Source of the DNA: Desulfurobacterium atlanticum
GTDB lineage: Bacteria > Aquificota > Aquificia > Desulfurobacteriales > Desulfurobacteriaceae
Direction: 5' to 3'
Assembly (NCBI RefSeq): GCF_900188395.1
Contig: NZ_FZOB01000001.1
Coordinates: 262,101 to 308,980, forward strand
DNA length: 46,880 nucleotides
Shown here: piece after piece, positions 23,983 to 41,409 of the stretch
Layout of the letters: the number at the start of each line of letters is the position of its first letter
How positions within the stretch are numbered: position 1 is the first letter of the stretch
Notes under the pieces: generated by a model
What the model was told of the DNA's origin: nothing
Database searches by the model: none
What the model saw: only the letters and a program-made list of their open reading frames with translations
Translations under genes and position numbers: made by a program

Positions 23983-24169
23983 GATTTACACCTTTGATTA
24001 TGCTTTTAAATTTTCGTAATTTTAAAAATCTGTCCTTATAGATACAATATAAATTATGTCAGAATAAACGTATAAGTTTCGTTTACTTATAAAGAGAAGA
24101 AGTTTTGTTAAAATAACACTAAATAGGGGAATTTTTAAATTTTAGATGAATTTTAATTTGGAGGTAGCT
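23983..24169 (+). promoter_or_regulatory. upstream region of the CRISPR island with an operator-like dyad
   Basis: An AT-rich gap of 187 bp separates the divergent cREC gene and the first gene of the type III island. It contains a perfect 7-bp inverted repeat, TATAAGT at 24071-24077 and ACTTATA at 24085-24091, about 80 bp before the first start codon. This is a candidate operator. No strong consensus promoter can be fixed; TTGATT (near 23994) with TAATTT 17 bases later is a weak candidate. Confidence 0.35.
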
Positions 24170-25027
24170 ATGGAGGCAATTTCCTTAAAAACAGTACTTG
24201 AAAATTATAGGAAAACGAAAGATGAGGTTCTTACAAGTTTGAGAAAAGCTCTTAATGGTGATGGTAATGTTAATAAAGTTGCTGAAACATTTTCCGTTGG
24301 AGATTTATTTTCTTTTGGAAAATTTCTGGGAATGATTGTTGATGAAGGAGAAAATTGTTATTGGTGTTGTAAAGTTTCAGAATTTATAGAAATGGTCGGT
24401 CCTTATGACGTTATTGTTAACATTGGCAGTAAGAGATTTATAGTGGAAACTTCAAATGCTTTTATCGTGCCTAAAAGTTTAATGGGCAAAGCGTTCAAAG
24501 CAGGAACTCTAAGTGAAACTGACTTTGATTTTGTAATCAAAGCTTATGACGGAGAGAAAATTTCTTCTCATAAAACGGGAGAAGAATTTGTCCCTGATGA
24601 TTTAAGGTTTTTATTTCTAAAAGAGGAAGGGGATTTAGTAAGAAAATTTGCTAAACTTGCTGGGAAAACCCTCTTTTCTTCTACAGAAAAACTTCAGACA
24701 AGTGATAAAGAAGAAAACAATTGTATAATTCTTTCCTTCATTCCTGAAGATGTTTTTGAAATAGTTGCTGCTGATACTGAAAATAAGGTGGAGTATGCAG
24801 ATGACTTTGTCCTTTTAAGAGAAGGAGAGGGAATTAAAATTTTTCCGTCTAAAAAATTTGTAGGAAAAAGAGGAATGATTAGAATATTTGGTAAAGAAAA
24901 ATTTTATGAATCTGTGCCCGGGGAGATAATTTTGAAATCTAAGGATGAAAAATTGTCATCTGTTCCCCTTTCTATTTTGGTTGGAAAAATAAAAATAGAA
25001 AGGGAAAGTGATAAAGATGAAGTTTGA
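24170..25027 (+). CDS. MazF-like protein, candidate CalpT-type substrate of the SAVED-Lon protease
   Basis: A protein of 285 residues. The N-terminal two-thirds look like a divergent MazF/PemK-type domain: 'GDLFSFGKFLGMIVDE', 'YWCCKVSEF', 'YDVIVNIGSKRFIVETSN' and 'KAGTLSETDF'. A low-complexity linker near residue 185 ('QTSDKEENN') leads to a separate ~100-residue beta-rich C-terminal domain. Size, order and position directly before a Lon-SAVED gene match CalpT, which the protease CalpL cuts between a large and a small fragment after cA4 sensing. I infer the CalpT assignment; MazF similarity is by eye. The start is the ATG at 24170 (GGAGG five bases upstream), not the in-frame ATG at 24146. 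It is the first gene of the island. Confidence 0.55.
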   Translation: MEAISLKTVLENYRKTKDEVLTSLRKALNGDGNVNKVAETFSVGDLFSFGKFLGMIVDEGENCYWCCKVSEFIEMVGPYDVIVNIGSKRFIVETSNAFIVPKSLMGKAFKAGTLSETDFDFVIKAYDGEKISSHKTGEEFVPDDLRFLFLKEEGDLVRKFAKLAGKTLFSSTEKLQTSDKEENNCIILSFIPEDVFEIVAADTENKVEYADDFVLLREGEGIKIFPSKKFVGKRGMIRIFGKEKFYESVPGEIILKSKDEKLSSVPLSILVGKIKIERESDKDEV

Positions 25028-26537
25028 TGAATATCCTGTTGATATTGTTATTGAATTTGTTAGAGAAGGGAGAACTATTCCTTTTGAGGAGAATGAAGAA
25101 TATATCAGAGAAATCTTTTTAGGTGAATCAGTCACTGATAAACATTTCTTTCTGCAGAATCTTTTGTTGTTTAGACTTTTAGATGAAATACCTATAAGTG
25201 AAATTGAAAAAGTTATGGCTATGGAAATTGTTGATGTTAAACATTTTGAGTTTCCTGCAATTTCTGTTTCAAACAAACAAAACGATTGTGTGTTGAGGGG
25301 GAAGATCGTTTATACCAGTAAACCACCGAAAAGAAACAGTTTTTTAGTTGACAATAATGTGATTCGGGCGTGTAAAACTTTCAAAAGTTTGTTTAATACG
25401 AAAAATTTTATTTTAGTGTTTGATGGTAGAGAATTTACAGGGACGTCATTTATGCTCTCTGTTGTTGTAGCTCACTTCTTTTCTCAAAAGTTATTTGAGT
25501 ATTTTATGTTTACAGGAGAAGTTCTTCCTTCAGGAAAAATAAACAAAGTGGACTCTATTCTGGAGAAAAAGAAACTTGCACAAAGGTATGGAAAAAAACT
25601 TATATCACCTGAAGACGTTTCTTCTATTGAGGAAGTTGATTTCTGGCTTAACGAAAGCAAACCTCTTCCTGTTCCTTTTTCTGTGATGATAAAGAAAAAT
25701 AATGATGGTTTAAAGCTTCTTGAGAGTGCGATAAAAGAAAGGGAGCCTTTGTTTTCTCTAAAAAATTTGGAGGTTTTTTTTGAGATAAAGCGCGAAGATA
25801 TTTCCATACTGCATTCTGGGTTTTTGTCGGAAAATTATCAGGAGTGGCTGGCTTTTGTTCACAGAATAAGGGAGCAACTTAGGAAGCTTTTTTCTAATGA
25901 GAAGCTGGTAGAGCTAAAAAAACCTGTTATAAACTTAATATGTTCAGAATCCATTATAAGTTTTGTAATTGGAGTGCTTGTTGGTACCAAGAAGAGAGTA
26001 GTTTTTCATTCATATAACCGTGGCGATAACGTTTATGTTCCTTCAATGGAAACAGATGATAGTTTAAGAAGTTTGGATTTTCCAGGGGCTGAATTTTGTG
26101 GAGAGTTGATAGATTACGAATATTTTATATCAGATAAAAATAAAAATGTTCTTCCAGTAATTATTGATATGGCACCGACAACGAGAATAGAGTATGATGT
26201 AAAAGAATTTTTAAAGAAAAATAGGATTGAAAATTTCATCGTTATAAAAATAGATAGAGACAAAATTAAGAACTACATTCCTGAAGATACAAATATACGG
26301 AAAAAATTAGTAAAAGAAATTTATAATTTGTTAAATTGCCAGACTTTTAAGAAATTTTCAAAGTTATGGTTTTTTATGAATCTTCCTGTGGATATAGCTT
26401 TCGGACTTGGAAGCACTTTTCAGGATACAAGGATGATTTCACTATTTAAATTTTTTCCAGGAAAGAAAGATAAATATGTAGAGGTTTTAAATGTTTCTCC
26501 TGGACCTTCCCCTGGTGGTGTTAAAAGTATTTTTTAG
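25008..26537 (+). CDS. calpL: Lon protease-SAVED fusion (CalpL-like cyclic-oligoadenylate-activated protease)
   Basis: A protein of 509 residues in three parts. A helical N-terminus (about 1-95) precedes a Lon-like S16 protease domain (about 95-215), which has 'FTGTSFML' with candidate nucleophile Ser147. It also has 'FTGEVLPSGKI', aligning with the Lon 'TGEI…G' strand, and Lys187-189, about 41 residues after the Ser, as the candidate general base. The C-terminal SAVED-type sensor (about 290-505) has 'INLICSESIISFVIGVLVG' and 'LWFFMNLPVDIAFGLGSTF'. This is the CalpL architecture, in which cA4 binding to SAVED oligomerises and activates the protease. It overlaps the MazF-like gene by 20 nt. 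The start may instead be the ATG at 25017. Confidence 0.75.
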   Translation: MIKMKFDEYPVDIVIEFVREGRTIPFEENEEYIREIFLGESVTDKHFFLQNLLLFRLLDEIPISEIEKVMAMEIVDVKHFEFPAISVSNKQNDCVLRGKIVYTSKPPKRNSFLVDNNVIRACKTFKSLFNTKNFILVFDGREFTGTSFMLSVVVAHFFSQKLFEYFMFTGEVLPSGKINKVDSILEKKKLAQRYGKKLISPEDVSSIEEVDFWLNESKPLPVPFSVMIKKNNDGLKLLESAIKEREPLFSLKNLEVFFEIKREDISILHSGFLSENYQEWLAFVHRIREQLRKLFSNEKLVELKKPVINLICSESIISFVIGVLVGTKKRVVFHSYNRGDNVYVPSMETDDSLRSLDFPGAEFCGELIDYEYFISDKNKNVLPVIIDMAPTTRIEYDVKEFLKKNRIENFIVIKIDRDKIKNYIPEDTNIRKKLVKEIYNLLNCQTFKKFSKLWFFMNLPVDIAFGLGSTFQDTRMISLFKFFPGKKDKYVEVLNVSPGPSPGGVKSIF

Positions 26538-26594
26538 TTGTTACTTTTTTAAAAATTTTGTAAAATTGGAAAAATTCGTTTGGGGGGATTGAGT

Positions 26595-28283
26595 GTGGAG
26601 TCTTACCTTCTCAAAGGAGATATCAATGGAATACAAAATTTTATCTATTCTGTAAAAGAAGGAAAGGGAGGTGTTGCAAAAACGTTAAGAGCAAGAAGTT
26701 TCTTTATTACAACAATTCCCTCTTACATAGCATACTTTTTAAAAGAAAAGCAACATCTTGAGGTTGAAGTTTGTCTTGATGGTGGTGGTGGTTTTATATT
26801 CAAAGTTTCGGGAGAAAATGTTGAAAGTGCATTAAAAGAACTTAAACAAAAAGTGGAAGCAGTTTTTATTGAGAAATTTTCTGGAGAGTTAGGAATTACT
26901 ATTGAGTGGTTGCCTTCTGGGAAGGGAAATTTTTCAGACCTTCATGAAGTTACGTTGAAAGCTAAAAAAAGGAAATTTTCCACCTATTTTGAGAGCGTTA
27001 AGAATCCAATTTTCCTTGAAGATAAAGGAAAAGTTAAATGTGAGGTTTGCGATATTTACTTTACAGATTCAGATGATGGTATATGTAAACTTTGTAAAGA
27101 GTTTATGGAAGTCGGGACAAAACTTCCATCAAAAAAATTCTGGAAGATTACAGATAAAAAAGAAGGAAGAGCGTTTTTCTCTATTAAAGAATTTGGATGG
27201 CTTATTTTTCCAAAAAATGGAGGGCATGAAGCATTCCGGAAGGAGAGTTATAGAGACAGTAAATGCAAAAAATACAGCAATGCTCCTAAAAAATTTGAGA
27301 TAGTTGTACCTGTTATTTCAAGAGATTTAACACAAGAGGATATTAAAAAGTATTCCCTATCAGAGGAGCTTGAAAATCTAAAAGAACATCAAATCGCACC
27401 TTTTGAGATAATAGCCTATCACAGTGAAGGAGATAAAAAACTTGGTTATTTGATGATGGATGTTGATAACCTTGGGTTACTTTTCGGTCAGTTGGATGAT
27501 GTTGGCAAACAGCAAAAGCTTAGCTCTATAATAGATATGTTTTTCTCTGAAAAAATTCCGGAGATAGCAAAAGCAGAAAAGTTCGTTCCTGAAAACTCTG
27601 ATCTTCTAAAAGAAACTCTTATCTACCTTCTATATTCAGGAGGAGATGACCTGTTTGCAATAGCACCGTGGAACGTTCTTATAGATTTTGCTGTGTGTGT
27701 GAGAGAGAAATTCAAAAGTTATATATCAGAATCACTTAAAGGGAAGGATTTACTTGGTAATGATACAAAAAAAGATTCTTACGAATTGATAACTGTTTCA
27801 GCAGGAATTTATATAAGTAAACCGAAATTTAATATAAGAGCAGCTGCAGAAAAATGTAAAGATGCAGAGTACAGAGCAAAAACTGTTACCTCTTTCAGCA
27901 AAAAGAAAGAGAAATCATACTCTAAAGATGCTGTTTGTGTGTTTGATGTTGTTGTTCATTGGGATGATATAAATGATTTGTTGTCGGTTTCCAGAGATCT
28001 GATTTCCTACATTGAAAGTGGAAAGTTATCCCGCGGTTTTGTCTATAAGTTACACTCTCTTTATAAGGAAAAGATTGAAAATCCGGTAAATTCTGGAAAA
28101 AGACCTGATTTAAGTTTTTATCCTCTTATCTATTATTTTGTGGGAAGAAATATAGAAGATGATGAAGTTAGAAATTTTGTTACTGAAAAAGTAATTAAAG
28201 AAGCGGAGGATTTTGAAAACATTGAAAATAATAAACTTAAGTTTATAACAAACTATGTGCTTCTTGCTACAAGGAGGTTATAA
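26595..28283 (+). CDS. cas10: Cas10/Csm1, HD-less, with intact cyclase motif
   Basis: Large subunit of the type III-A Csm complex, 562 residues; it synthesises cyclic oligoadenylates when target RNA binds. It begins directly with Palm 1 ('DINGIQNFIY', then 'DGGGGFIFK'). A CxxC…CxxC zinc finger sits near residues 149-170 ('CEVC', 'CKLC'). Palm 2 carries the cyclase motif G349-G350-D351-D352 ('LYSGGDDLFAIAP'), and a helical D4 domain ends the protein. The N-terminal HD nuclease domain of ordinary Csm1 is absent; the upstream 57 bp contain no coding sequence for it. The start is a GTG with GGGGGGA six bases upstream; TTG at 26589 and 26580 are alternatives. Confidence 0.93.
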   Translation: MESYLLKGDINGIQNFIYSVKEGKGGVAKTLRARSFFITTIPSYIAYFLKEKQHLEVEVCLDGGGGFIFKVSGENVESALKELKQKVEAVFIEKFSGELGITIEWLPSGKGNFSDLHEVTLKAKKRKFSTYFESVKNPIFLEDKGKVKCEVCDIYFTDSDDGICKLCKEFMEVGTKLPSKKFWKITDKKEGRAFFSIKEFGWLIFPKNGGHEAFRKESYRDSKCKKYSNAPKKFEIVVPVISRDLTQEDIKKYSLSEELENLKEHQIAPFEIIAYHSEGDKKLGYLMMDVDNLGLLFGQLDDVGKQQKLSSIIDMFFSEKIPEIAKAEKFVPENSDLLKETLIYLLYSGGDDLFAIAPWNVLIDFAVCVREKFKSYISESLKGKDLLGNDTKKDSYELITVSAGIYISKPKFNIRAAAEKCKDAEYRAKTVTSFSKKKEKSYSKDAVCVFDVVVHWDDINDLLSVSRDLISYIESGKLSRGFVYKLHSLYKEKIENPVNSGKRPDLSFYPLIYYFVGRNIEDDEVRNFVTEKVIKEAEDFENIENNKLKFITNYVLLATRRL

Positions 28284-28714
28284 TGAGTAGGAAAAATCAG
28301 CAGTCGGAAAAAAATTTGCTAAAAGAAATTAATCGCAAATTGTCAGCTGTTGAATCTATTTCTGATGTTTTTAAAGAAAGCGACATATATAAACCTGAAG
28401 GTAAGCTTTTTAAAATTCTTGAACAAAACAAAAATGCGTTTAAAACCACTCAACTAAGAAAGATTTTTTCCGAAATAAAAATGATAGAGATGGAAATAGA
28501 AAGGAAAAAAGAGTTAACGCAGGAGGTAAAGAAAAGAATCTTTCGTCTTTACCCAAAACTTGCTTACTCAAAAGCTCGCGACTTAATCAAAGAAGACTTT
28601 TACCAATTCTTTATCCTTTTACTTGAAAAAATGGAGAAAAACAAAGAAGAAGCTTTAAAAGTATGTGATGTTTTTACCTCTATTGTTGCCTTCAAAAAAT
28701 ATTTAGAATCATGA
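28283..28714 (+). CDS. csm2: Csm2: small subunit of the type III-A complex
   Basis: All-helical small subunit that stacks along the crRNA-target duplex, 143 residues. The family pattern is visible as 'FKTTQLRKIFSEIK' and 'LYPKLAYSKARDLI'. The start overlaps the cas10 stop (TAATG), with AAGGAGG upstream. The presence of Csm2 rather than Cmr5 identifies the system as III-A. Confidence 0.9.
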   Translation: MSRKNQQSEKNLLKEINRKLSAVESISDVFKESDIYKPEGKLFKILEQNKNAFKTTQLRKIFSEIKMIEMEIERKKELTQEVKKRIFRLYPKLAYSKARDLIKEDFYQFFILLLEKMEKNKEEALKVCDVFTSIVAFKKYLES

Positions 28715-28736
28715 AACTTTGAAGTGGGAGGATGAA

Positions 28737-29501
28737 ATGGAAGAGCAAAGATATCATTTTTACGGAAATGTGCTAATACCTTTTAGGCTTGAAGTTGTTA
28801 CAGGACTTCATATTGGTGGATCAAAAGAGGGATTTGACATAGGAGGAGTTGACAATCCCGTTATTAAACTGCCGTTTGACGTAAAAGTTAAGTCTGAGTT
28901 TTCAGGTGAAGAATATGTTGTGCCTCGTGAATTTCCTTACATTCCTGGTTCAAGTTTAAAAGGAAAAATAAGGAGTCTTCTTGAATGGGAAAATAATCTC
29001 GTTAGAGAAGACGGTTCTCCGACTGCCGATCCTGATAGTGCGGTAGGAAAAGTTTTTGGAATCGCTGACAGTGATAGAGAAAAAAGGAAAAAAGCAGGAC
29101 CTGTTAGATTAAGAGTTTTTGACTCCTACATTTCTAAAGATAGCATTGAGAACGATTTTTATACAGAGCTTAAATATGAAAACTCCATAAACCGTATAAC
29201 TTCAGAAGCAAATCCGAGGCCTTTTGAGAGAGTTCCTGCTGGAACAGTTTTTGAAGGGAGATTCCTTCTTAAACTTTTCGCAAGGGAAGATGTTGATTTC
29301 TTAAATCTTATTGAAACAGGAATGAAACTGCTGGAAGATGATTACCTTGGAGGTGGAGGTTCTCGGGGATCTGGAAGGGTAAGATTTTCGGATATTAGAA
29401 TTGTATTCAGGGATAAGAAATTCTATAAAGGTGAGTGTAAAGAGAAAATTTTCACAGATTTCAGGAACGCTATTGAAGAAATAAAAAAAACTATAGGGTG
29501 A
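28737..29501 (+). CDS. csm3: Csm3: Cas7-type backbone and target-RNA nuclease
   Basis: Repeated backbone RAMP of the Csm complex, 254 residues. It cuts target RNA at 6-nt intervals. Motifs: 'TGLHIGGSKEGFDIGGVDNPV', interrupted here as 'TGLHIGG' and 'GGVDNPV', with Asp39 the likely catalytic residue; 'YIPGSSLKGKIRSLLEWE'; and the C-terminal glycine-rich loop 'DDYLGGGGSRGSGRVRF'. The ATG at 28737 has GGGAGG upstream, and a TTG at 28719 is less likely. It follows csm2 by 22 bp. Confidence 0.95.
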   Translation: MEEQRYHFYGNVLIPFRLEVVTGLHIGGSKEGFDIGGVDNPVIKLPFDVKVKSEFSGEEYVVPREFPYIPGSSLKGKIRSLLEWENNLVREDGSPTADPDSAVGKVFGIADSDREKRKKAGPVRLRVFDSYISKDSIENDFYTELKYENSINRITSEANPRPFERVPAGTVFEGRFLLKLFAREDVDFLNLIETGMKLLEDDYLGGGGSRGSGRVRFSDIRIVFRDKKFYKGECKEKIFTDFRNAIEEIKKTIG

Positions 29502-29506
29502 TATAG

Positions 29507-30475
29507 ATGGAAAGTGTAAGAATTCTTATTAAACCGACTTCTCCGTTAAAAAGTGAACTTTCTTCTTACACGCTATTTTCAGCTATCTGTTGGGGATTAA
29601 AGTTTCTATATGGAGATGATTATGTTAAAGAGTTAGTAAATATGGTTTCTTCCAGTAAATTTTTTATATCTTCTTTGATGCCTGTAGATATAGAGAAGAA
29701 AAAATTTTTTTACTTTAAACCAGAACTTGAACCTGTAATAGAGAGAGAAACCGATCCTGAAAAACGCAGCGAAAGAAGAACGATGCAGAAAAAATTTAAG
29801 AAAAAGAAATTCATAGATTTTCTTTCTTTAAAGAAAATATTAGATGGAGTGATAAAAACAGAGCTTGAACTTATGAATTTCCTTGTTGATGAAAATGGAA
29901 ACGAAACATTCTATATAAGTTTAGAATTTCCTCATGTAAGTATAGACCGATTTTCAATGACAGCTAAAGAAGGTCTGTTTTTCTATGAAAGTGCGGTTTT
30001 TATAGAATCCGGGTATTTTATTGTTTTTGCTGAAGAGGAAATTTTAAATGCTGTGGAAAAATCTTTAACTCTTTTAAAGGATTGGGGAATAGGCGGAAAC
30101 AGAAATATAGGTTATGGAGCTTTTAATTTTGAAATTTTGAAGGACGAAGAGCTAAATATTCTTTCCGATTACTTTATCCGATATTTTAATGGAGCGACAA
30201 GCTTTATTACTCTTTCTCCTGTAATTCCAACTTCAAATATAGATTTTTCAAAAAGCATGTATTCTCTTTATACATTCAAAGGTGCAGCGGAATACGATTT
30301 TCAAAAAGATGTTTTATGGAAGAGAAAAGTGTTTTATATGAAGGAAGGTGCGGTTATAAAGAGGAAAAAAACAGATGAGACGGCAGGTGCTATATTGGAT
30401 GTTTCTCCTGAACCTTCAGTTTCTATTTTTCAATACGGTCTTGAATTTCCTTTGTGTTTAAGGGGTGAAATATGA
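29507..30475 (+). CDS. csm4: Csm4: Cas5-type RAMP, crRNA 5'-handle binding
   Basis: RAMP protein of 322 residues that caps the 5' end of the crRNA and binds Cas10. It starts with the Csm4-like 'RILIKPTSPLKSELSSYTLFSAICWG' segment, quoted in part here as 'SYTLFSAICWGLKFLYG'. A G-rich loop 'GIGGNRNIGYGAF' sits at about residues 200-212. Position between csm3 and csm5 supports the call. It overlaps csm5 by 4 nt. Confidence 0.92.
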   Translation: MESVRILIKPTSPLKSELSSYTLFSAICWGLKFLYGDDYVKELVNMVSSSKFFISSLMPVDIEKKKFFYFKPELEPVIERETDPEKRSERRTMQKKFKKKKFIDFLSLKKILDGVIKTELELMNFLVDENGNETFYISLEFPHVSIDRFSMTAKEGLFFYESAVFIESGYFIVFAEEEILNAVEKSLTLLKDWGIGGNRNIGYGAFNFEILKDEELNILSDYFIRYFNGATSFITLSPVIPTSNIDFSKSMYSLYTFKGAAEYDFQKDVLWKRKVFYMKEGAVIKRKKTDETAGAILDVSPEPSVSIFQYGLEFPLCLRGEI

Positions 30476-31610
30476 GATTTCGTTTGACAACTCTGACACC
30501 ACTACATATAGGAACCGGACAAAACATATCCCCTTTTGAGTTTATAATTAAGGATGGAAGATGTTATATTTATGATATTACTGATATTGTAGGTATCAAC
30601 TCAATAGTTGATCTGAAATTGAAAAATATGCTTAAAAATTCTGCAACTTCATTGAGTCTAAAAAAGATAATTACTGATTCATCTATTAAAAAGGTTTTAG
30701 ATAGGATAAAGCCCCTGTATTCTATTGCTATTGAAATAGACTTTCAACAAGGTTCTATGAGATCTGGAAATATAAAAAATATTGAAGAGTTTATAAAAAC
30801 CAATAATCTTGTATATATTCCCGGTAGTGAAATAAAAGGCAGTTTAAGAAGAGCCCTTTTTTATTACATTCTGAGCAAAGAAAAGAAAATCGGTGGTTCA
30901 ATATATATCAAATTTATAAAGAAACTTCAAGGTATTGTGCATCAGTATCAAAAGGAAAAGAAAAATTCAGAGGACTTTAGAGCTTTAAAGAGAAAGTTCA
31001 AAAAGAAGTTAAGTAGACTGGTTCAACAGATAGAGTTTGAAGTGTTTCGTGGAGAAAAGTTTACTGAGGACGCAAAGAGAGATGTTTTAAGATTTGTAAA
31101 AATCAGTGATACTGAATCTAAAAGTCCTGAAGAGGTTCTTTCTTTGCGAGAAATTTACATTTATTATTACCACGGTAAGAGAAAACAGTTCTCAATATTT
31201 TCTGAAACTGTGGACCCAAAAGTTTCTTTTTCATTTAACTTGGATATTGATAAAAGAGGAATAAAAAACTGTGGTTGTCACGAAATTTTAAAAGACATTT
31301 TTATTAACGATAAGCTTTTACGTAGTTGGTGTTCTGCTGAAATATGGACTTTAAATAAGGATGAATATTTAAAGTCTCTGTGTCCCCTGTTGTTAAAAAA
31401 ATGTTTAAAATGCCAATAATAAGAATAGGAAAACATGAAGGATTTTTATCAACAACAATCACAGCCTTGGTAAAAGACGACGAAGAACTTTTTGAAGGAA
31501 TTTTTGAAATAGTTGCTCCTAAAATGAGTGAAATTCCAAATAAAACGAGAAAACTTACGGCAGTTGAGAAATTGCCTCTTGGGATATGTAAATTAGGAGA
31601 AGAAAAATAA
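30472..31610 (+). CDS. csm5: Csm5: Cas7-type RAMP, split by a -1 frameshift at an A7 run
   Basis: Terminal backbone RAMP of the Csm complex. The first frame (30472-31419, 315 codons) carries 'TTLTPLHIGTGQNISPF' and 'VYIPGSEIKGSLRRALFY', then stops. The normal C-terminal part continues in the -1 frame to 31610 with 'MPIIRIGKHEGFLSTT', the usual Csm5 glycine-rich segment, and '…PLGICKLGEEK'. The frames meet at A7 (31395-31401), read as A AAA AAA, a classical -1 slippery heptamer. A -1 slip there, or one extra A, gives a normal protein of about 380 residues. Options are programmed frameshifting, transcriptional slippage, a recent mutation or a sequencing error. The second frame ends in TAATG overlapping cas6. 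Confidence 0.85.
31395..31401 (+). other. A7 slippery heptamer inside csm5
   Basis: The incoming frame reads TTA AAA AAA TGT. Slipping back one base gives AAA AAA ATG TTT AAA ATG CCA, which joins the two halves of Csm5 with no missing residues. No Shine-Dalgarno-like stimulator is seen in the preceding 20 bases, so the programmed nature is unproven. Confidence 0.6.
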
Positions 31611-32380
31611 TGCCTGTTAGTTTCAATTTGAGAGTATCTATTAACAGGAAAATTAACATAGAGGAATTAAACCCCGAAAGAATTCATGCTCTTTTCTTCA
31701 GTTTTCTTCCAGAAAGTATGGCTAAAAGCTTGCATGCGGATAATATAAAACCCTTTTCTCTATCATATCAAAGATTTTTTAACAGTAATAAAGAAAGAGA
31801 GATAGGAAGTTTTATACTAAAAATTTCTTTTCTCAAAGAAAAAATGTTTCCACTGTTTGTTAAAGAAGTTTCCAAAGCTGGAAAAGATAAGAATGTTGTC
31901 ATTGGAAAAGCAAAGGTAGTTAAGACAAAAATCAGTTCTGTTAACTATATTTCTTATGCAGAACTTTTAAATAATGCTGGTTATGAAAAGGATATAGTTT
32001 TTCAGGTTATAACTCCTGCAACTTTTAAAAAAGGAAAATATGATAATCCATCTCCGGTTCCATCTCTTATTTTCAAAAGTCTATTTAGAAAATGGAACCA
32101 TTTTTCCAGACTAAAGCTGCCGATTTCAGAAACAGAGTTTATAAAGTTGGTTAAAAGACATGTTTTAACATCTGGCTTATGGATAAAAACGGAAAAAGTT
32201 TTCATATCTCTTTCTTTTAAAAAACTTATAGGCTTTAAAGGTAGGTTATACTTCTATATTGACACTGACAATAAGCAACTTTTAAAAGTTTTAAATGCTT
32301 TATCTGATTTTTCAGAGTTTAGTGGTATCGGCAGGAAAACAACTATGGGTTTTGGTAGAATAAAAAGAATTAATAGTTAG
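31610..32380 (+). CDS. cas6: Cas6: CRISPR repeat endoribonuclease
   Basis: Processes the long CRISPR transcript by cutting each repeat at the 3' base of its hairpin, 256 residues. It has the two ferredoxin-like-fold signatures: 'NPERIHALFFSFLP' with a candidate active-site His26, and the C-terminal glycine-rich loop 'FSGIGRKTTMGFGRIKR'. It starts in the TAATG overlap with csm5. The array repeat has a hairpin ending exactly eight bases from the repeat end, which fits Cas6 processing. Confidence 0.93.
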   Translation: MPVSFNLRVSINRKINIEELNPERIHALFFSFLPESMAKSLHADNIKPFSLSYQRFFNSNKEREIGSFILKISFLKEKMFPLFVKEVSKAGKDKNVVIGKAKVVKTKISSVNYISYAELLNNAGYEKDIVFQVITPATFKKGKYDNPSPVPSLIFKSLFRKWNHFSRLKLPISETEFIKLVKRHVLTSGLWIKTEKVFISLSFKKLIGFKGRLYFYIDTDNKQLLKVLNALSDFSEFSGIGRKTTMGFGRIKRINS

Positions 32381-32405: not shown

Positions 32406-34025
32406 ATGAAAGAGGTAAGATGGGATGACCTGATAGAAAAGGTTAGTAAAGTTGAAAAAATTGTAAATGAAATAAAAACTATAGGTGGAATAAATGTTGA
32501 TTGGATAGAGGAGAAACTTGAAAGAACAAAAAAAGATATTTATGGAAAAGTGTTTAAGATTTCTGTTTTTGGTGGATTTTCAGATGGAAAATCTACAATT
32601 ATTTCGTTTCTGCTAAAACGTAATGACATAGAAATATCACCAGAACCGACTACAGATAAAGTCAACTATTATAAATACAAGAATAAAAATGTAGTTATTG
32701 CAGATACTCCTGGGCTATTTTCTGAAAACTTAATTCATGATGAAGAAACAAAGAGATTTATATCTGAATCTGACCTTATTATCTTTGTAACCGATGCACT
32801 CAATCCTTTGAAAGAGAGCCAGCATAGGGTTATAAAGTGGCTTCTTAAAGATCTGGATAAAAAAGACTCAACAGTCTTTGTCATTAATAAAATAGACACA
32901 ATGGATGTTGACCTGTATAACAGGGAGGACTTTGAGAGAGCTTGCAAAATAAAGAAAAAGGTCGTTTCAGAAACTCTTGATAGAATTATTGGGGAAAATG
33001 CAGGAAACTATCGGATTATCTGTGTTGCTGCTGATCCATGGGGGATGGGAATTAAATACTGGATGGAGAATATTGAGGAGTATTTTTCCATCTCAAATAT
33101 GAAGGTTCTTGAAGAAATTATAGAAGAAACCATTAAATCTCCAGAAACAATGAATATTCTTTTTGAAAAAAAGGTAAATTCGGTTATAAAAGATGTTAAA
33201 AACGTTTTTTCTGTGGAATTGAGGAATAACCTGAAAAGTCTTGAAATCTCCCTTGAAGAGCTTGAAGTGGAGCTGGAAGAGCTTGATAGTGAATTAAGAA
33301 AACTTGAAAAGCATATTACAAAGGCCACAAGGGACTTTAAGGAGCGAATTCGTAATTTGAGAAGTTCTATATTAAGGAGAATAAAGTTATGTAACAATAC
33401 AGAAGAGTTGGGACTGGTTGTCCGCGAAGAGTTGGGCCCTGAAGCAGTAGTTTTAAAAAGTAAAATAGAAGATATTTTCTATGAGTGTTTTACTCCAGTG
33501 ACAGAATATCTTGAAAAGTCAGGGGATATTTTTTTAAAAATTGTTGAGGATTACCAGAAGCTTAAGATGGAATCCTCAATTTTCGCCAGCAAGTTTTTAA
33601 CTTCTGCTACAAAAAAGACAGGAGAAATTTTAGGTAAAATTCCTCCTGATAAATTAAGGGATGGTATTTTACAAACAAGAGACCTTTTAAGAATTCCTTT
33701 TAAATTTAAACCGTGGGGGGCTTTGAAACTTGCAAGATTTCTCAATACATTGGGACCCGTTCTCGGTGCCGTTTCTTTAGGTATGGAGCTTTATAATCAG
33801 TATAAATTAAGAAGGGAAAAAGATAATCTTATAGAAGCAGTGGATTCCCTGTTTTCTGTATTTTTAGGAGATTTTAACTCTCAATATATTAAAGAAAACT
33901 ATTTTTCTGCAGTTGTTGAAATGGAAAATTTAAGGGATGCTATTTATGATGATTGTAAGTTTATGAGAGAAAGGATAGAAAATATGAAAAACTTGATTAC
34001 AAAGGTGGAGGAACTTGGGCTATGA
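32406..34025 (+). CDS. leoA: LeoA-like dynamin-family GTPase
   Basis: Dynamin-like GTPase of 539 residues. G-domain motifs: P-loop G56-GFSDGKS63, the 'FSDGKS/T' form typical of LeoA; switch/G3 'DTPG' at 100-103; and G4 'NKID' at 161-164. Long coiled-coil stalk regions follow (about 250-330), then a hydrophobic patch near residues 430-460 ('ALKLARFLNTLGPVLGAVSLG') that could touch membrane. LeoA-type dynamins form the Eleos phage-defence system with LeoBC. Here the gene directly follows cas6 (25 bp gap, strong AAAGGAGGG site) and overlaps the next GTPase gene by 4 nt, so it belongs to the type III operon. Function in this context is inferred. Confidence 0.72.
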   Translation: MKEVRWDDLIEKVSKVEKIVNEIKTIGGINVDWIEEKLERTKKDIYGKVFKISVFGGFSDGKSTIISFLLKRNDIEISPEPTTDKVNYYKYKNKNVVIADTPGLFSENLIHDEETKRFISESDLIIFVTDALNPLKESQHRVIKWLLKDLDKKDSTVFVINKIDTMDVDLYNREDFERACKIKKKVVSETLDRIIGENAGNYRIICVAADPWGMGIKYWMENIEEYFSISNMKVLEEIIEETIKSPETMNILFEKKVNSVIKDVKNVFSVELRNNLKSLEISLEELEVELEELDSELRKLEKHITKATRDFKERIRNLRSSILRRIKLCNNTEELGLVVREELGPEAVVLKSKIEDIFYECFTPVTEYLEKSGDIFLKIVEDYQKLKMESSIFASKFLTSATKKTGEILGKIPPDKLRDGILQTRDLLRIPFKFKPWGALKLARFLNTLGPVLGAVSLGMELYNQYKLRREKDNLIEAVDSLFSVFLGDFNSQYIKENYFSAVVEMENLRDAIYDDCKFMRERIENMKNLITKVEELGL

Positions 34026-35965
34026 CTGCTCGTGAGTTTATAGAAAATAGTATTCAGGAGTTTGAAAAAATTTTAGAAGATTTTGAAGAGAGAAGTGGGG
34101 TTATTCTTAAACGTGTTGCTTCCAAGACAAAAAGAACAAAAAGAAAATATATTGATAAGGAAGATAAGATTTATAAAAAGATAGAAAAGAGAATAAAAGA
34201 TTTTTATCATAACCTTTCCCTTCTTGGAAAGGAGATGGAGTTTGATACTTTAAACGTAGCTTTTTTTGGAGAAACAAATGTAGGTAAAAGCACTCTTATA
34301 GAAGCCCTAACAAAAGGAGATGGTAGCACTATTGGTGATGGAAGAAAAGATTTTACAAAAACATTTAGAGCAAAAAATTTTGGTAGAAAAATATTTCTGC
34401 TTGATATGCCAGGTATTGAAGGAAATGAAGCTATAGTTTCTGAAGAGATTAAAAGGGCAGCTAAAAAATCTCATATTATCTTTATAGTAATTCCTGAAAA
34501 TAAAGAACCAGAAGAAGGATTTCTTGAAAAAGTTAGAACATATATCGGGGATAGCACATTTGTATTTGGTATTATCAATTTAAGAGGAATTTTTCCTTTA
34601 AATGTTCTCGAGAAGAAAAAAAAGAACATTGAGATCGTAAAAAAACGTACTGAACAAAAATTAAAAGGAGAATTTGGTAAAGCTTTTAAAGAAATATTTA
34701 TTGTTCATGGTTTATACGCTTTTTTTGCTATGAATAGTGGAATTCCTGAAAGCCAGAAATCCTCTTACGAGAGGGTTATGAAATTTGTCAAAAATGATAG
34801 AGAGAAGCTTAAGGAGTTTTCTGGAATAAACAAAGTAATAGAAACCATAGGAACATATAAAACTTTCTCAAACAATGTAATTTTATGGAGTAATATTTAC
34901 AAGCTTTTCAAAAAAGAGAAAGAATTAATCATAAGTGTAAGAGAGGAGAGAACTCAGCTTAAAAAAACTATTGAGGATTTTCTGAAAGAAATAGAAAAAC
35001 TTAAGAGAAAATTTGATTCACAAAGTGAATCTTTACTCAGCGATATAAACTCAGAAGTATTTTTCCGTTTAGACGAATTGAGAGATGAACTTGAGGAGCT
35101 TATATGTAACGCCATAGATGCTGGAAGGGATAAAGATGATTTAAATTCAGAGATAGAGGAAAAAATAGATCTCTGTATAGAGGAAATGGAGGAAAATATA
35201 GAATATTATCTTGACGATTTTATAGAGGATGTAAACAAAGATATTGAAAAATTGATTAAGAAATTAAAATTGAAGTTTAAAAGGATAAACCTGGGAACAG
35301 ATATTGGAATTGATGTAGACTTTACAGAAGCATTTAATAGTCTTTCATTGTCTTTTAAGGAAGCAGCGCTTGGAGCATTAAGTATATTGGAAAGTATCGT
35401 TTCTATTTTAACAGGTCCGATAGGTGCAGTTATTGCTGGTATTTTTGGTTTGTTGAACACCTTCCTATCCTGGCTTTTTGGAGGAAATTCAAAGAAAAAT
35501 GAAGCCAAGAGAAAAGCTATAAATGAAGTAAACAAAACTATCAGAAATATACGAAATAAGCTCAGGAGAAAAGTTAATGGTGAACTTAAAAAACTTAGAA
35601 GAGAGATTAACAAAGTTGAAAGAGAGATATTAAAAATAGAAAAACAGATAGAAAATAAAGTGGAGTATTGGGATATTCTAATTTCCTTACTTGTAGAACA
35701 TTACATATCTTTATCAACGAATTTCTTTAAGACCATTACTCAATCTGTAGAGTTTGCTTACGTTGCTCCTGATTCAGGAAAGAATAAAGAACCTGTAGCT
35801 ATTATTGTTGGAGGAGATATAGAAAAAATAGGATATTTTTGTAATAACATTGGAATTAAAGTCTACTTCAAAGATTCTATTGAAAGCGCACTTAAAACTC
35901 TAAAATCAAAGGATAAAAAATTATACAGCGAGATAAGAAGTTTAGTGGAAAAAGAATGTTTTTGA
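34022..35965 (+). CDS. LeoBC-like dynamin-family GTPase with membrane paddle
   Basis: A second dynamin-like GTPase, 647 residues. The P-loop is G83-ETNVGKST91 and G3 is 'DMPG' at 128-131. The G4 position reads 'IINLRG', so a canonical NKxD is missing and nucleotide specificity may be altered. Long charged coiled coils flank a strong hydrophobic hairpin at about residues 447-487 ('SIVSILTGPIGAVIAGIFG'), which looks like a membrane-inserting paddle. Paired, overlapping dynamin genes of unequal type match the LeoA/LeoBC (Eleos) layout and other two-component bacterial dynamins. It is the last gene before the cas1-cas2 block. Confidence 0.68.
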   Translation: MTAREFIENSIQEFEKILEDFEERSGVILKRVASKTKRTKRKYIDKEDKIYKKIEKRIKDFYHNLSLLGKEMEFDTLNVAFFGETNVGKSTLIEALTKGDGSTIGDGRKDFTKTFRAKNFGRKIFLLDMPGIEGNEAIVSEEIKRAAKKSHIIFIVIPENKEPEEGFLEKVRTYIGDSTFVFGIINLRGIFPLNVLEKKKKNIEIVKKRTEQKLKGEFGKAFKEIFIVHGLYAFFAMNSGIPESQKSSYERVMKFVKNDREKLKEFSGINKVIETIGTYKTFSNNVILWSNIYKLFKKEKELIISVREERTQLKKTIEDFLKEIEKLKRKFDSQSESLLSDINSEVFFRLDELRDELEELICNAIDAGRDKDDLNSEIEEKIDLCIEEMEENIEYYLDDFIEDVNKDIEKLIKKLKLKFKRINLGTDIGIDVDFTEAFNSLSLSFKEAALGALSILESIVSILTGPIGAVIAGIFGLLNTFLSWLFGGNSKKNEAKRKAINEVNKTIRNIRNKLRRKVNGELKKLRREINKVEREILKIEKQIENKVEYWDILISLLVEHYISLSTNFFKTITQSVEFAYVAPDSGKNKEPVAIIVGGDIEKIGYFCNNIGIKVYFKDSIESALKTLKSKDKKLYSEIRSLVEKECF

Positions 35966-36202: not shown

Positions 36203-37135
36203 ATGAGAAACATTTTTGTTACAACTCATGGTGCATCTTTAACTAAAAGAAAATATGAGCTTATTGTTACTCTGAATTCCAAAAAACACACTATACCTTT
36301 TGGAAGTTTTTCAAACTTGTTTATAGTGGCAAATGTTAAAATTTCCACTCCTCTTATAAAAGCGTTAACTGAAAATAAAAAAAGTGTTTTCATACTTAAA
36401 TCAAATGGCACTTTAACTTCAATGATACTTCCTCCTTTTTTGAATTCATCGGCAAGAAGAAGAGTTGCTCAATATAAAAAGTTTGAAGATGAAAGTATTA
36501 AAATATTTATGATTAAAGAACTTCTAAGAAGAAAGTCTCTTCTTACTCAATGGACGCTTGAGAAATTTTACGATTTTTCAGAAAAACACTATCTTGAAAA
36601 AAACATAATAAAAAGTTTTTACAGGTGCACTAAAGATTGGATAGAAAAATCTTCAAGCATTGCAGCACTCAGGGGGATAGACGGCTACATTATGAACACC
36701 CTTTACGATCATTTCGCTCAATCAATTTCAAAATTCTGGGAATTTGAAAAAAGAAGCTACAATCCACCTAAAAATGAAGTGAATAGTGTGCTTAGTCTTG
36801 TCTACACATACACATATTCCATACTTACTTCTATAATAATTTCTTATAATCTTGATCCTTACTGTGGATTTTTCCACGAAAAACATGGAAAACATGCAGT
36901 TCTCGCTTCTGATTTATTAGAACTACTAAGGCCTGGATTAATTTTTTTTGTAGCTGACATTCTAAACAGTAGATACATTGAAGCTACTGATTTTAAAAAG
37001 ACACGAAAATCTATACTGATAAAGCAACCTGCATTAAAAGTAATTTCTAAGTTATACTCAGAAAAAGTATTAAATGGTTCCTTTTTCTATCCAGTTTCAG
37101 CATTTATTCATGAAATAATGTTAAGAGGATTGTAA
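36203..37135 (+). CDS. cas1: Cas1: CRISPR adaptation integrase with Glu-to-Asp active-site change
   Basis: Spacer integrase, 310 residues. It has the beta-rich N-terminal domain and helical catalytic domain of Cas1. The metal-binding residues normally Glu, His, Asp/Glu are Asp160 ('LRGIDGYIMN' instead of LRGxEG), His225 ('GFFHEKHGKH') and Asp237 ('SDLLELLRP'). The Glu-to-Asp change in the first ligand is conservative but unusual and could lower or change activity. It is not fused to a reverse transcriptase. GGGGGAAGG precedes the ATG, and cas2 follows 17 bp downstream. Confidence 0.93.
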   Translation: MRNIFVTTHGASLTKRKYELIVTLNSKKHTIPFGSFSNLFIVANVKISTPLIKALTENKKSVFILKSNGTLTSMILPPFLNSSARRRVAQYKKFEDESIKIFMIKELLRRKSLLTQWTLEKFYDFSEKHYLEKNIIKSFYRCTKDWIEKSSSIAALRGIDGYIMNTLYDHFAQSISKFWEFEKRSYNPPKNEVNSVLSLVYTYTYSILTSIIISYNLDPYCGFFHEKHGKHAVLASDLLELLRPGLIFFVADILNSRYIEATDFKKTRKSILIKQPALKVISKLYSEKVLNGSFFYPVSAFIHEIMLRGL

Positions 37136-37152: not shown

Positions 37153-37413
37153 GTGAAATATCTTGTTGTTTACGACATTTCAGATGATAAAATACGTAAT
37201 AAAGTTTCAACAAGGCTTAAAAAATTCGGTATGCGTGTTCAATATAGTGCTTTTGAAATAGAGATAAAGAAAACTGACTATATCAAGCTCTACAAAGAAA
37301 TAGCTTCGATTATAGATAAAACAGACTCTGTGTTCTTTTTTCCATTATCATCCTATTCAGAAAGCTTAATATTAAAACTTGGACAGGTGAAAAGAGAGGA
37401 AGATGTAATATGA
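37153..37413 (+). CDS. cas2: Cas2 (first of two)
   Basis: Structural partner of Cas1, 86 residues, starting 'MKYLVVYDISDDKIRNKV' with the conserved Asp8 of the first beta strand. The family C-terminal strand is present ('SVFFFPLSSYS'). The GTG start has AGGAGG upstream. It overlaps the second cas2 gene by 4 nt (ATGA). Confidence 0.92.
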   Translation: MKYLVVYDISDDKIRNKVSTRLKKFGMRVQYSAFEIEIKKTDYIKLYKEIASIIDKTDSVFFFPLSSYSESLILKLGQVKREEDVI

Positions 37414-37730
37414 AATATAAATTTTCCAATAGGATAACAACTTACATAATAATTTATGACATTTTATCAGATGATGTTAGAGGGTGGGTTTCTCTGGCAA
37501 ACCGTAGAAGGGCAAAAATTTCCAGAATTCTTTTAGAATACGGTATGAGAACTCAAAAAAGTGTATTTGAACTTGAAATAACTTCCAAAAAAGAGTTTTC
37601 CAGAATGATTAAAAGATTAGAGAAAACTATGAATAAACATGATAAAGTATACATCTATCCAATAGATTCTAAAAATAAAAAGAAGATAAAAAGATTGGGA
37701 TATGAAATTGAAACAGATTTTTTCTTTTAA
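37410..37730 (+). CDS. cas2: Cas2 (second, divergent copy)
   Basis: A second Cas2-fold protein of 106 residues with 'TYIIIYDILSDDVRGWVSL', an Arg-rich insertion 'ANRRRAKISRILLEYGMR', then 'KVYIYPIDSK'. It differs strongly from the upstream copy, so it is not a recent duplication. It resembles the R-rich Cas2 type ('RR.k…l..yG.r.Q.SVFE'). Two translationally coupled cas2 genes suggest a Cas2 heterodimer or two alternative adaptation complexes. Confidence 0.88.
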   Translation: MKYKFSNRITTYIIIYDILSDDVRGWVSLANRRRAKISRILLEYGMRTQKSVFELEITSKKEFSRMIKRLEKTMNKHDKVYIYPIDSKNKKKIKRLGYEIETDFFF

Positions 37731-38063: not shown

Positions 38064-41000
38064 GTTGAAATGCCCTTAGAACCGAAAGGGATTACGACTT
38101 ATTTCCAATTTAATTTTGTTCATCTCACACCTCCTTAAGTTGAAATGCCCTTAGAACCGAAAGGGATTACGACTTGTAAATATACAGCATTTTCATAACA
38201 ACCTCCTCTTGTTGAAATGCCCTTAGAACCGAAAGGGATTACGACTATAATATCACTTATATTTGACGCCTCAATCGAATTATGTTGAAATGCCCTTAGA
38301 ACCGAAAGGGATTACGACTATAATATCACTTATATTTGACGCCTCAATCGAATTATGTTGAAATGCCCTTAGAACCGAAAGGGATTACGACTATAATATC
38401 ACTTATATTTGACGCCTCAATCGAATTATGTTGAAATGCCCTTAGAACCGAAAGGGATTACGACAATATCTAGAAGTTTGTTATAACTAATATATGTTTT
38501 TAGTTGAAATGCCCTTAGAACCGAAAGGGATTACGACATTTAATATTATTTTAGTATCTTTCACTATATCCTTATATCCATGTTGAAATGCCCTTAGAAC
38601 CGAAAGGGATTACGACTGTAATCAATACTTTCTAATTCATATGAACTAACTGTTGAAATGCCCTTAGAACCGAAAGGGATTACGACCCGCCAAATGGCGG
38701 CTGACTCTTCTTTCCAATTTTATTGTTGAAATGCCCTTAGAACCGAAAGGGATTACGACGATAATATTTCTAATGAAGTATCACCAACACGTTTCAATTC
38801 GTTGAAATGCCCTTAGAACCGAAAGGGATTACGACACGCATCCCTGGCCACCCCCTTTCACCGGTGGTGCAAACGACCGTTGAAATGCCCTTAGAACCGA
38901 AAGGGATTACGACCCGGGTTTATTTCCCGGCCTCTCTATCTTTGGAGATCCCCTCATGTTGAAATGCCCTTAGAACCGAAAGGGATTACGACTACAACAT
39001 TTTCATGACTTACCACCTCCTATTTTATTTGTTGAAATGCCCTTAGAACCGAAAGGGATTACGACTTTAGCTAACATATTTATACTTGCATATAATGTTT
39101 TTGATAAATGTTGAAATGCCCTTAGAACCGAAAGGGATTACGACATTAAGTATCTTTGTTTATAGATCTTAAAGTATACTTCGTTGAAATGCCCTTAGAA
39201 CCGAAAGGGATTACGACTAAATAATACCGAACTATCATTACCAACACTCTTTTTAACTGTTGAAATGCCCTTAGAACCGAAAGGGATTACGACCCTCAGA
39301 AGAGGGAGGGGGTTGATGCCCAGGGCATAGCCCTGGTTGAAATGCCCTTAGAACCGAAAGGGATTACGACTCGTATCCACCAGCAACGTACAATTTATTA
39401 TCAAAGGACGTGTTGAAATGCCCTTAGAACCGAAAGGGATTACGACATACTCCGTTTCAGATAACTTTTGAGGGAACTGGACTAATACAAAGTTGAAATG
39501 CCCTTAGAACCGAAAGGGATTACGACCGATAAGGAGCATGAAGAGTTCAAACATATTACCTCCTGTTGAAATGCCCTTAGAACCGAAAGGGATTACGACA
39601 GGTAACTTCTCCGGTAACTGAATCATAATATACCTAGTTGAAATGCCCTTAGAACCGAAAGGGATTACGACTCTCATGTTTACCTCCTAAAAATAATAAT
39701 TTATTTCAGTATAGTTGAAATGCCCTTAGAACCGAAAGGGATTACGACATTATATTCTAATATTGTTTGCATGAGCTTAAAGTGGTTGAAATGCCCTTAG
39801 AACCGAAAGGGATTACGACCAGGGTTCGGGATTCTTGATATGAAATAGATCCTCCTTGCGGAGTTGAAATGCCCTTAGAACCGAAAGGGATTACGACACC
39901 GCCAAATGGCGGTCAACCTTTCTTTCTAGTTTTACTAATGGTTGAAATGCCCTTAGAACCGAAAGGGATTACGACCAAAAATATTTTTTTATTGTATAGA
40001 GGAGGACGGGGATTAGTTGAAATGCCCTTAGAACCGAAAGGGATTACGACACACAACAAAAATAACTACTTCTATAAACATAATATATGTTGAAATGCCC
40101 TTAGAACCGAAAGGGATTACGACATATTTTGAGACTGAATAAATATTCAGAATATAATAACTATGAGTTGAAATGCCCTTAGAACCGAAAGGGATTACGA
40201 CATATTATCATTTACATATAGATCTATAAGTCTATTATAAGTTGAAATGCCCTTAGAACCGAAAGGGATTACGACTTATTGGTGGGTATGTCTATTATCA
40301 TGCCATCTTCTATTTTATGTTGAAATGCCCTTAGAACCGAAAGGGATTACGACATCCGATATCTTCAATTTCTTCAACAGTATACTGTTGAAATGCCCTT
40401 AGAACCGAAAGGGATTACGACTATCCCTCTATTCTTTTATAAAGATACAACATTTTCATGACTTTACGTTGAAATGCCCTTAGAACCGAAAGGGATTACG
40501 ACATATTATCATTTACATATAGATCTATAAGTCTATTATAAGTTGAAATGCCCTTAGAACCGAAAGGGATTACGACAAGATGAATAGATATAATTTCATC
40601 AACGGAATTACCGAGTTGAAATGCCCTTAGAACCGAAAGGGATTACGACAATACTACGACGACCAGAGAGGAGAAAACTCTTCCTCGTTGAAATGCCCTT
40701 AGAACCGAAAGGGATTACGACCCCAGGGCATAACCCTGGGCCACTAGACTTGCTATATCAGTGTTGAAATGCCCTTAGAACCGAAAGGGATTACGACAAA
40801 GTTGCTATATCAGTAAGGACCTCTTGAATGAGGTCCTTAGTTGAAATGCCCTTAGAACCGAAAGGGATTACGACTTGGATGTATCTCATCTACATCTATA
40901 ATAAATGGGATATTTTTTAAGTTGAAATGCCCTTAGAACCGAAAGGGATTACGACAATCCAAAATCAGTTAATTTATTTAGAAGAGATATATTAAGTTGA

Positions 41001-41409
41001 AATGCCCTTAGAACCGAAAGGGATTACGACATTTAGCATACTTTGGAAATATATCCATAGATAATCTAAATTTAAATGTTGAAATGCCCTTAGAACCGAA
41101 AGGGATTACGACAGTATGTATTCTCCCATTTTCTTATAAATATACAACATTTTGTTGAAATGCCCTTAGAACCGAAAGGGATTACGACTATCCTTATATC
41201 CATATAACATATCCTTTAAAAAGTTGAAATGCCCTTAGAACCGAAAGGGATTACGACGCTTCAGGTGCGTGTATTCGTGAAGCAGCACTTTTATGGAGTG
41301 TTGAAATGCCCTTAGAGCCGAAAGGGATTACGACCAGGGTGGCGGGTTACCACGATATCTGCCTTTGACACCGTGTTGAAACGCCCTTAGAACTGAAAGG
41401 GATTACGGC
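38064..41409 (+). CRISPR. type III-A CRISPR array, 45 repeats and 44 spacers
   Basis: The repeat is 35 bp, beginning GTTGAAATGC and ending GGGATTACGAC. I counted 45 copies, with spacers of 33-47 bp (average about 40). The repeat holds a CCCTT/AAGGG hairpin ending eight bases before the repeat end, so Cas6 cutting would leave the 5' handle ATTACGAC in crRNAs from the + strand. The last two copies are degenerate (41300: one change, AGAACC to AGAGCC; 41375: three changes), as expected at the leader-distal end. Spacers 3, 4 and 5 are identical (38246-38429), and spacers 29 and 33 are identical (40202-40240, 40503-40541). Transcription on + is also supported by spacers antisense to ribosome-binding sites. 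Confidence 0.97.

Follow-up and report, generated by a model that had tools for sequence, protein, structure and literature searches.

Antisense Polarity of Translation-Start Motifs in the Spacers of a Type III-A CRISPR Array from Desulfurobacterium atlanticum and of Related Arrays

A Complete Type III-A Locus

The window, by which we mean the whole stretch of 46,880 nucleotides analysed from the heat-loving bacterium Desulfurobacterium atlanticum, carries a complete type III-A locus from Cas10 to Cas6, with Cas1 and Cas2, and all of its genes described below lie on the + strand. The locus displays a GGDD cyclase palm, csm2–csm5 in one operon, and Cas6, Cas1 and Cas2 by the array. The Cas10/Csm1 protein (26580–28283, 567 aa) was recognized by Pfam (PF22335, PF18211) and by PADLOC (Cas10), with the GGDD motif at residue 354. 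The Pfam scan of this protein returned no HD family; the HD nuclease domain of Cas10 is usual for type III-A systems, not defining. The genes csm2 (28283–28714), csm3 (28719–29501), csm4 (29507–30475) and csm5 (30472–31419), all with profile matches including PADLOC, are followed by cas6 (31610–32380; PF10040, PADLOC), the pre-crRNA nuclease gene. The adaptation genes are cas1 (36203–37135; PF01867, E 2.9e-53), which encodes a 310 aa protein free of any fused reverse transcriptase, and cas2 (37410–37730; PF09827, E 8.9e-18).

The HD-less, GGDD-bearing cas10 gene is adjoined by a CalpL/CalpT-like pair (24146–28283 for the three genes). The first member (24146–25027) is a CRISPR-T-like protein resembling CalpT, the protease partner, with a weak PADLOC CRISPR-T match (E 3.2e-5), and the second (25008–26537) is a CalpL-like SAVED-Lon cyclic-oligoadenylate effector (PADLOC SAVED4--SAVED_LON, E 1.4e-147; CRISPR-Lon, E 2.7e-57). 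The arrangement is that of the Calp (CalpL/CalpT) module, a SAVED-Lon gene with a weakly recognized CRISPR-T-like neighbour by cas10, but the window locus differs from it by two dynamin-like GTPase genes (32406–35965; DLP_helical, Dynamin_N, MMR_HSR1) between cas6 and cas1. A tblastn search of the other regions collected gave only weak DLP1 matches, in three of them, and none of the papers searched mentions "type III CRISPR" together with "dynamin".

Another III-A locus of the same genome carries two arrays (positions 5585–7374 and 10218–10784 of that locus), and its Cas1 is 66% identical to that of the window. A search of a genome-contig database with the window Cas1 found no relative.

The CRISPR Array and Its Orientation

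The array (38064–41409, + strand) is made of 45 repeats of 35 bases, GTTGAAATGCCCTTAGAACCGAAAGGGATTACGAC, and 44 spacers, of which 41 are unique. Spacers 3, 4 and 5 are identical and in tandem (38246–38429), and the identical spacers 29 and 33 lie apart (40202–40541), the expected outcome of repeat-spacer duplication. The final two repeats at the high-coordinate end are degenerate, with 1 and 3 mismatches, which places the leader on the low-coordinate side. Degenerate repeats were likewise at the 3' end in 13 of the 22 arrays of this repeat class and at the 5' end in 2. The preliminary description had proposed that the array is transcribed from the + strand, and both the side of the degenerate repeats and the replicated motif polarity reported below support this orientation. 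A scan of the leader for sigma-70 promoters found none. In the gap between cas2 and the array, the segment 37800–37900 has by eye the look of a dispersed repeat (catcctgaggg..cgaaggatc).

Spacers Covering Translation Starts

Five spacers had been described as containing the reverse complement of GGAGG and, at a distance of 4–9 bases, of ATG, and their coordinates proved exact. The target strand, which is the − strand in all five, reads GGAGG-N6-ATG in spacer 1 (38099–38138), GGAGG-N5-ATG in spacer 2 (38174–38210), GGAGG-N9-ATG in spacer 13 (38993–39030), GGAGG-N4-ATG in spacer 20 (39527–39564) and GGAGG-N5-ATG in spacer 22 (39672–39713). Among the 41 unique spacers, 0.12 such strict motifs would be expected from dinucleotide shuffles, and none of 5000 shuffles reached five. 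The accompanying statement that no spacer shows the sense arrangement did not hold: spacer 17 (39294–39335, + strand), which also contains a hairpin, carries GGAGG-N6-ATG in the sense direction, one occurrence against an expectation of 0.11 from shuffling. With five antisense motifs and one sense motif, the polarity within the window alone does not reach significance (binomial p 0.22). The polarity of open frames within the spacers was uninformative (11 to 7).

The gene start covered by spacer 2 encodes MKMLYIY, and four spacers fall on the start of this MKMLY gene family. In addition to spacers 2 and 13, these are spacer 32 (40422–40467, − strand), which is devoid of GGAGG and shares a 19-base match with spacer 13, and spacer 41 (41113–41153, − strand), likewise without GGAGG, which by eye starts just past the start codon. 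Since spacers 2 and 13 cover the start of a single gene family, the five motif-bearing spacers do not represent five independent genes.

Polarity in Other Arrays

Csm2 (PF03750) was found in 50 of the 136 genomes of the bacterial class, and the DNA surrounding every listed site was collected. Contigs from three genomes whose repeats are related were added to these Csm2 loci, and one array (L093) was retained from an earlier round of array finding. Spacers of 28–60 bases were kept, duplicates were counted once, and the overlapping loci L127–L132 were excluded. Of the 35 arrays obtained, that of the window included, 22 have repeats that end in ATTGCGAC or a close variant, and 13 have repeats with GAAAC-like ends. 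Nine arrays that the repeat-end rule had oriented wrongly were reversed before the final polarity count.

In the 21 other arrays of the window's repeat class, 15 of 211 spacers carried the strict motif in the antisense direction and none in the sense direction (p 6e-5); an earlier count made before the addition of the extra arrays had given 13 and 0 in 182 spacers. A looser motif, Shine-Dalgarno plus start, was found 52 times antisense and 6 times sense in the same 211 spacers, and GGAGG alone 31 and 7 times. When the window was pooled with these arrays (252 spacers), the strict motif was antisense in 20 cases and sense in one. In the second III-A locus of the window's genome, 4 of 28 unique spacers carried an antisense ribosome-binding site followed by ATG.

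It could be argued that chance, or purine-rich sequence alone, produces such motifs, as GGAGG by itself is a common element of coding strands (in the pooled spacers it occurs 37 times antisense and 9 times sense). The recurrence of the pattern in independent arrays refutes this explanation, to which we attach practically no credence and against which the shuffles of the window spacers also speak. The polarity is real and now well supported. It is also ordinary for an mRNA-targeting type III system: type III effectors require pairing with mRNA, so a polarity antisense to mRNA is expected, and according to PMC8482600 the coding strand accounts for 65% of type III spacers. The suggestion that the guides are complementary to mRNA thus finds support in the replicated polarity, as far as motifs can indicate the strand of the targets.

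The arrays with GAAAC-like repeats behaved differently. In their 107 spacers the antisense to sense counts were 2 to 0 for the strict motif, 3 to 0 for GGAGG and 8 to 9 for the loose motif; these arrays, which lie near csm genes, show no polarity. A tblastn search with the window Cas1 found no match in their loci; a divergent Cas1 would be missed by this search. As none of these loci matched the window Cas1, the GAAAC arrays fit the case, described in PMC8482600, of type III loci that lack their own cas1-cas2 and borrow type I uptake.

Frequency of Start Motifs Relative to Viral Sequences

For a preference for gene starts, the appropriate null is set by randomly chosen mRNA stretches rather than by shuffled sequence. 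Windows of spacer length were therefore drawn from reference DNA and both strands were summed, which yields an upper estimate for the coding strand. The strict motif was present in 1.9% of such windows in Aquificota-like IMG/VR loci (L231–L246), in 1.8% in provirus contigs and in 1.0% in host loci. The 20 motifs seen in 252 spacers (7.9%) compare with 4.75 expected from the Aquificota-like viruses (P 1.6e-7), 4.55 from the provirus contigs and 2.5 from the host; in the 211 replication spacers, 15 were observed and 4.0 expected. Counting two doubly hit gene families once each left 18 of 250 (P 2.5e-6). The excess varied between families. It was clear in the window's own family f1, which includes genome G019 (11 of 97, 2.0 expected), and in f4 (6 of 73, 1.4 expected). 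Family f5 had 2 of 35 for 0.2 expected from the host reference, and f3 showed no excess (1 of 47, 0.6 expected). A comparison of the ATTGCGAC class with the GAAAC arrays (21 of 252 versus 2 of 107, Fisher p 0.019) was rejected as evidence, being confounded by family: f3 and f4 alone gave no significant difference (z 1.3).

A less probable alternative holds that there is no preference for starts: the genes of the target viruses, or of the early modules at which type III guides have to aim, would be very short and have strong Shine-Dalgarno sites, and even random spacers complementary to mRNA would then often cover a start. The compact phage phiKo (26 genes in 11 kb), the most start-dense of those compared, is of this kind, with a coding-strand rate of 5.3% that predicts 13.3 motifs in 252 spacers, close to the 20 seen (P 0.05), and 11.1 in 211 (P 0.16). 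However, the early repeat of phage phiFa reached only 2.9% (7.2 per 252, P 7e-5), the small-gene region of P23-45 2.1% and GBSV1 0.9%. When proviral and viral contigs of Aquificota were divided into 852 stretches of 2 kb, the highest rate was 8.05%, and only 0.35% of the stretches reached the 7.9% of the spacers. The 20 motifs in 252 spacers stand against an expectation of 1.4 to 13.3 according to the reference. The excess of start regions is likely real, though the reference viruses may not be the true targets, and a preference for gene starts is suggestive, family-dependent and unproven. The hint in the preliminary description that mRNA 5' ends are preferred therefore survives in part, as an approximately fourfold excess over Aquificota-like viral windows that is clear in two of four families; it depends on the reference, and the Thermus arrays described below do not share it.

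The position of the strict motif along the spacer was uniform for the 20 motif-bearing spacers (KS p 0.92), which indicates the absence of PAM-like anchoring.

Thermus Arrays

Arrays of a second phylum were collected with a Thermus type III repeat ending in GGGGATTGCGAC, which matched 26 plasmid records; 159 unique spacers were obtained from stretches of nine plasmids. The Thermus thermophilus type III arrays resemble that of the window in the 3' end of the repeat (ATTGCGAC), in the placement of degenerate repeats toward the 3' side and in their antisense motifs (strict motif 5 antisense and 0 sense; loose motif 22 to 16). Unlike the window's class, they show no excess of start motifs over the Thermus phage background, as 5 in 159 falls inside the range of 1.5 to 8.5 predicted from Thermus phages, for which the comparison with phiYS40 covered 50 of 152 kb.

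Three Thermus spacers matched phiFa with 7–8 mismatches, and the reversed control gave 0 matches. All three were located in the early terminal repeat and were complementary to the early mRNA strand, an observation that favours the small-gene explanation given above. One of them covers the GGAGG of phiFa gene 40 and ends two bases before the ATG. PMC7515739 attributes the strand bias of Thermus spacers to selection, concentrated on the early region, which points in the same direction. One Thermus array stretch compared with phages gave no match.

Protospacer Searches and Hairpin Spacers

Six degenerate spacer patterns were searched in IMG/VR and found no target; one pattern returned four contigs, none of which was a target. 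One spacer pattern searched class-wide in the 136 genomes found the array itself only. None of the 359 unique spacers matched within 8 mismatches in 1.88 Mb of host and provirus DNA, and in 1.5 Mb of IMG/VR terminase loci there was one weak match, as many as the reversed control gave. Searches with five window spacers taken singly found no target among phages or plasmids. Three phage matches of a window spacer (E 3e-4) fell on start regions of unrelated phages and were taken as chance. Since the window spacers have no protospacer match, the position of the target genes, their early timing and their strand are read from the motifs alone.

Hairpins, defined as perfect stems of at least 6 pairs, were present in 22 of the 252 spacers (8.7%) versus 4.5–4.6% of viral windows, and in 6 of the 107 spacers of the GAAAC arrays. 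Compared with shuffles, the window had 7 for 2.9 expected (P 0.02) and the other arrays 15 for 9.9 (P 0.07); relative to shuffled spacers the excess is modest, with P between 0.02 and 0.2. In the window array, a hairpin is common to spacers 9 and 25 and another to spacers 17 and 36, and spacers 36 and 37 overlap, as do spacers 7 and 42.

The presence, in the window array, of both start spacers and terminator-like hairpin spacers would be compatible with a reverse transcriptase copying spacers from RNA ends. Such RNA-derived acquisition was rejected and appears very improbable: unlike in RT-Cas1 type III systems, no reverse transcriptase is fused to or located beside the plain 310-aa Cas1, the family PF00078 (RVT_1) was absent from the window's genome, and among 26 genomes searched one contained it.

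A Proposed Model of RNA-Directed Memory

The most likely reading, to which we give moderate confidence, is an ordinary type III-A memory operating without reverse transcriptase, in which guides complementary to mRNA are filtered for and uptake favours 5' regions together with hairpins and small early genes, in line with publications on other type III systems. In this model, the array would be read on the + strand and Cas6 would cut the transcript, and the Csm complex would pair the guides with viral mRNA. As Csm guides pair with viral mRNA, only spacers antisense to it would be useful and kept, and spacers covering ribosome-binding sites or starts would hence tend to be antisense, which is the tendency of the motifs in the 22 pooled arrays. 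The over-representation of start regions would have two causes: uptake would draw preferentially on hairpins and 5' regions of genes that are transcribed, and the best protection would come from spacers aimed at small early genes, as published type III work and the hairpin excess found here suggest. Judging from domain content, target binding would make the GGDD Cas10 produce cyclic oligoadenylate and so switch on the SAVED-Lon protease. Guides placed on the start site might also block translation, but the model does not require it.

The nearest known counterparts are the III-A systems of Streptococcus thermophilus and S. epidermidis, which likewise operate without reverse transcriptase, possess Cas10, Csm2–5, Cas6, Cas1 and Cas2, and have mRNA-complementary spacers. 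PMC9048733, citing Zhang et al. 2021, reports that the S. thermophilus III-A system takes up spacers from sites 10–50 bp downstream of the start codon and also from attenuator hairpins; start sites combined with hairpins are the pattern suggested here. The present case differs from that account in that the arrays are natural ones of Aquificota and in that the excess lies on the ribosome-binding site itself rather than 10–50 bp downstream; the uniform motif offset speaks against the proposed model to the extent that it lends no support to an uptake hotspot at a set distance downstream of the start.

A functional selection may also be imagined, in which Csm bound to the ribosome-binding site blocks translation, or in which the mRNA is most accessible, or least mutable, at its starts, such spacers giving the best protection and being retained. 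The 20 to 1 polarity and the repeated hits on the MKMLY gene start agree with it, whereas the uniform motif offsets and the Thermus arrays argue against it, and the present data separate retention neither from uptake nor from a targeting of small early genes; we regard it as doubtful. A broader proposal, tentative at best, is that in Desulfurobacteriaceae and related Aquificota those III-A systems that have a Cas1-Cas2 of their own possess an intrinsic preference for the translation starts of viral genes, through uptake or retention, and that some of their guides, being placed on ribosome-binding sites, could both block translation and signal. If the start excess holds, it would be a trace, left in natural arrays, of the uptake from 5' regions that is reported of a laboratory type III-A system, and would raise the question of whether such guides also silence translation. 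A literature search judged by titles and the openings of abstracts found no report of natural type III arrays in which spacers cover ribosome-binding sites or the start codon. In any case, the motif polarity allows a type III array to be oriented even when no protospacer is at hand, an advantage where the viruses are unknown.

In one of the other arrays (locus L109, 2399–5932), pairs of spacers seem by eye to be aimed at paralogous genes, for example two of a zinc-finger-like type (CEGC..GWV), which suggests repeated sampling of one viral gene.
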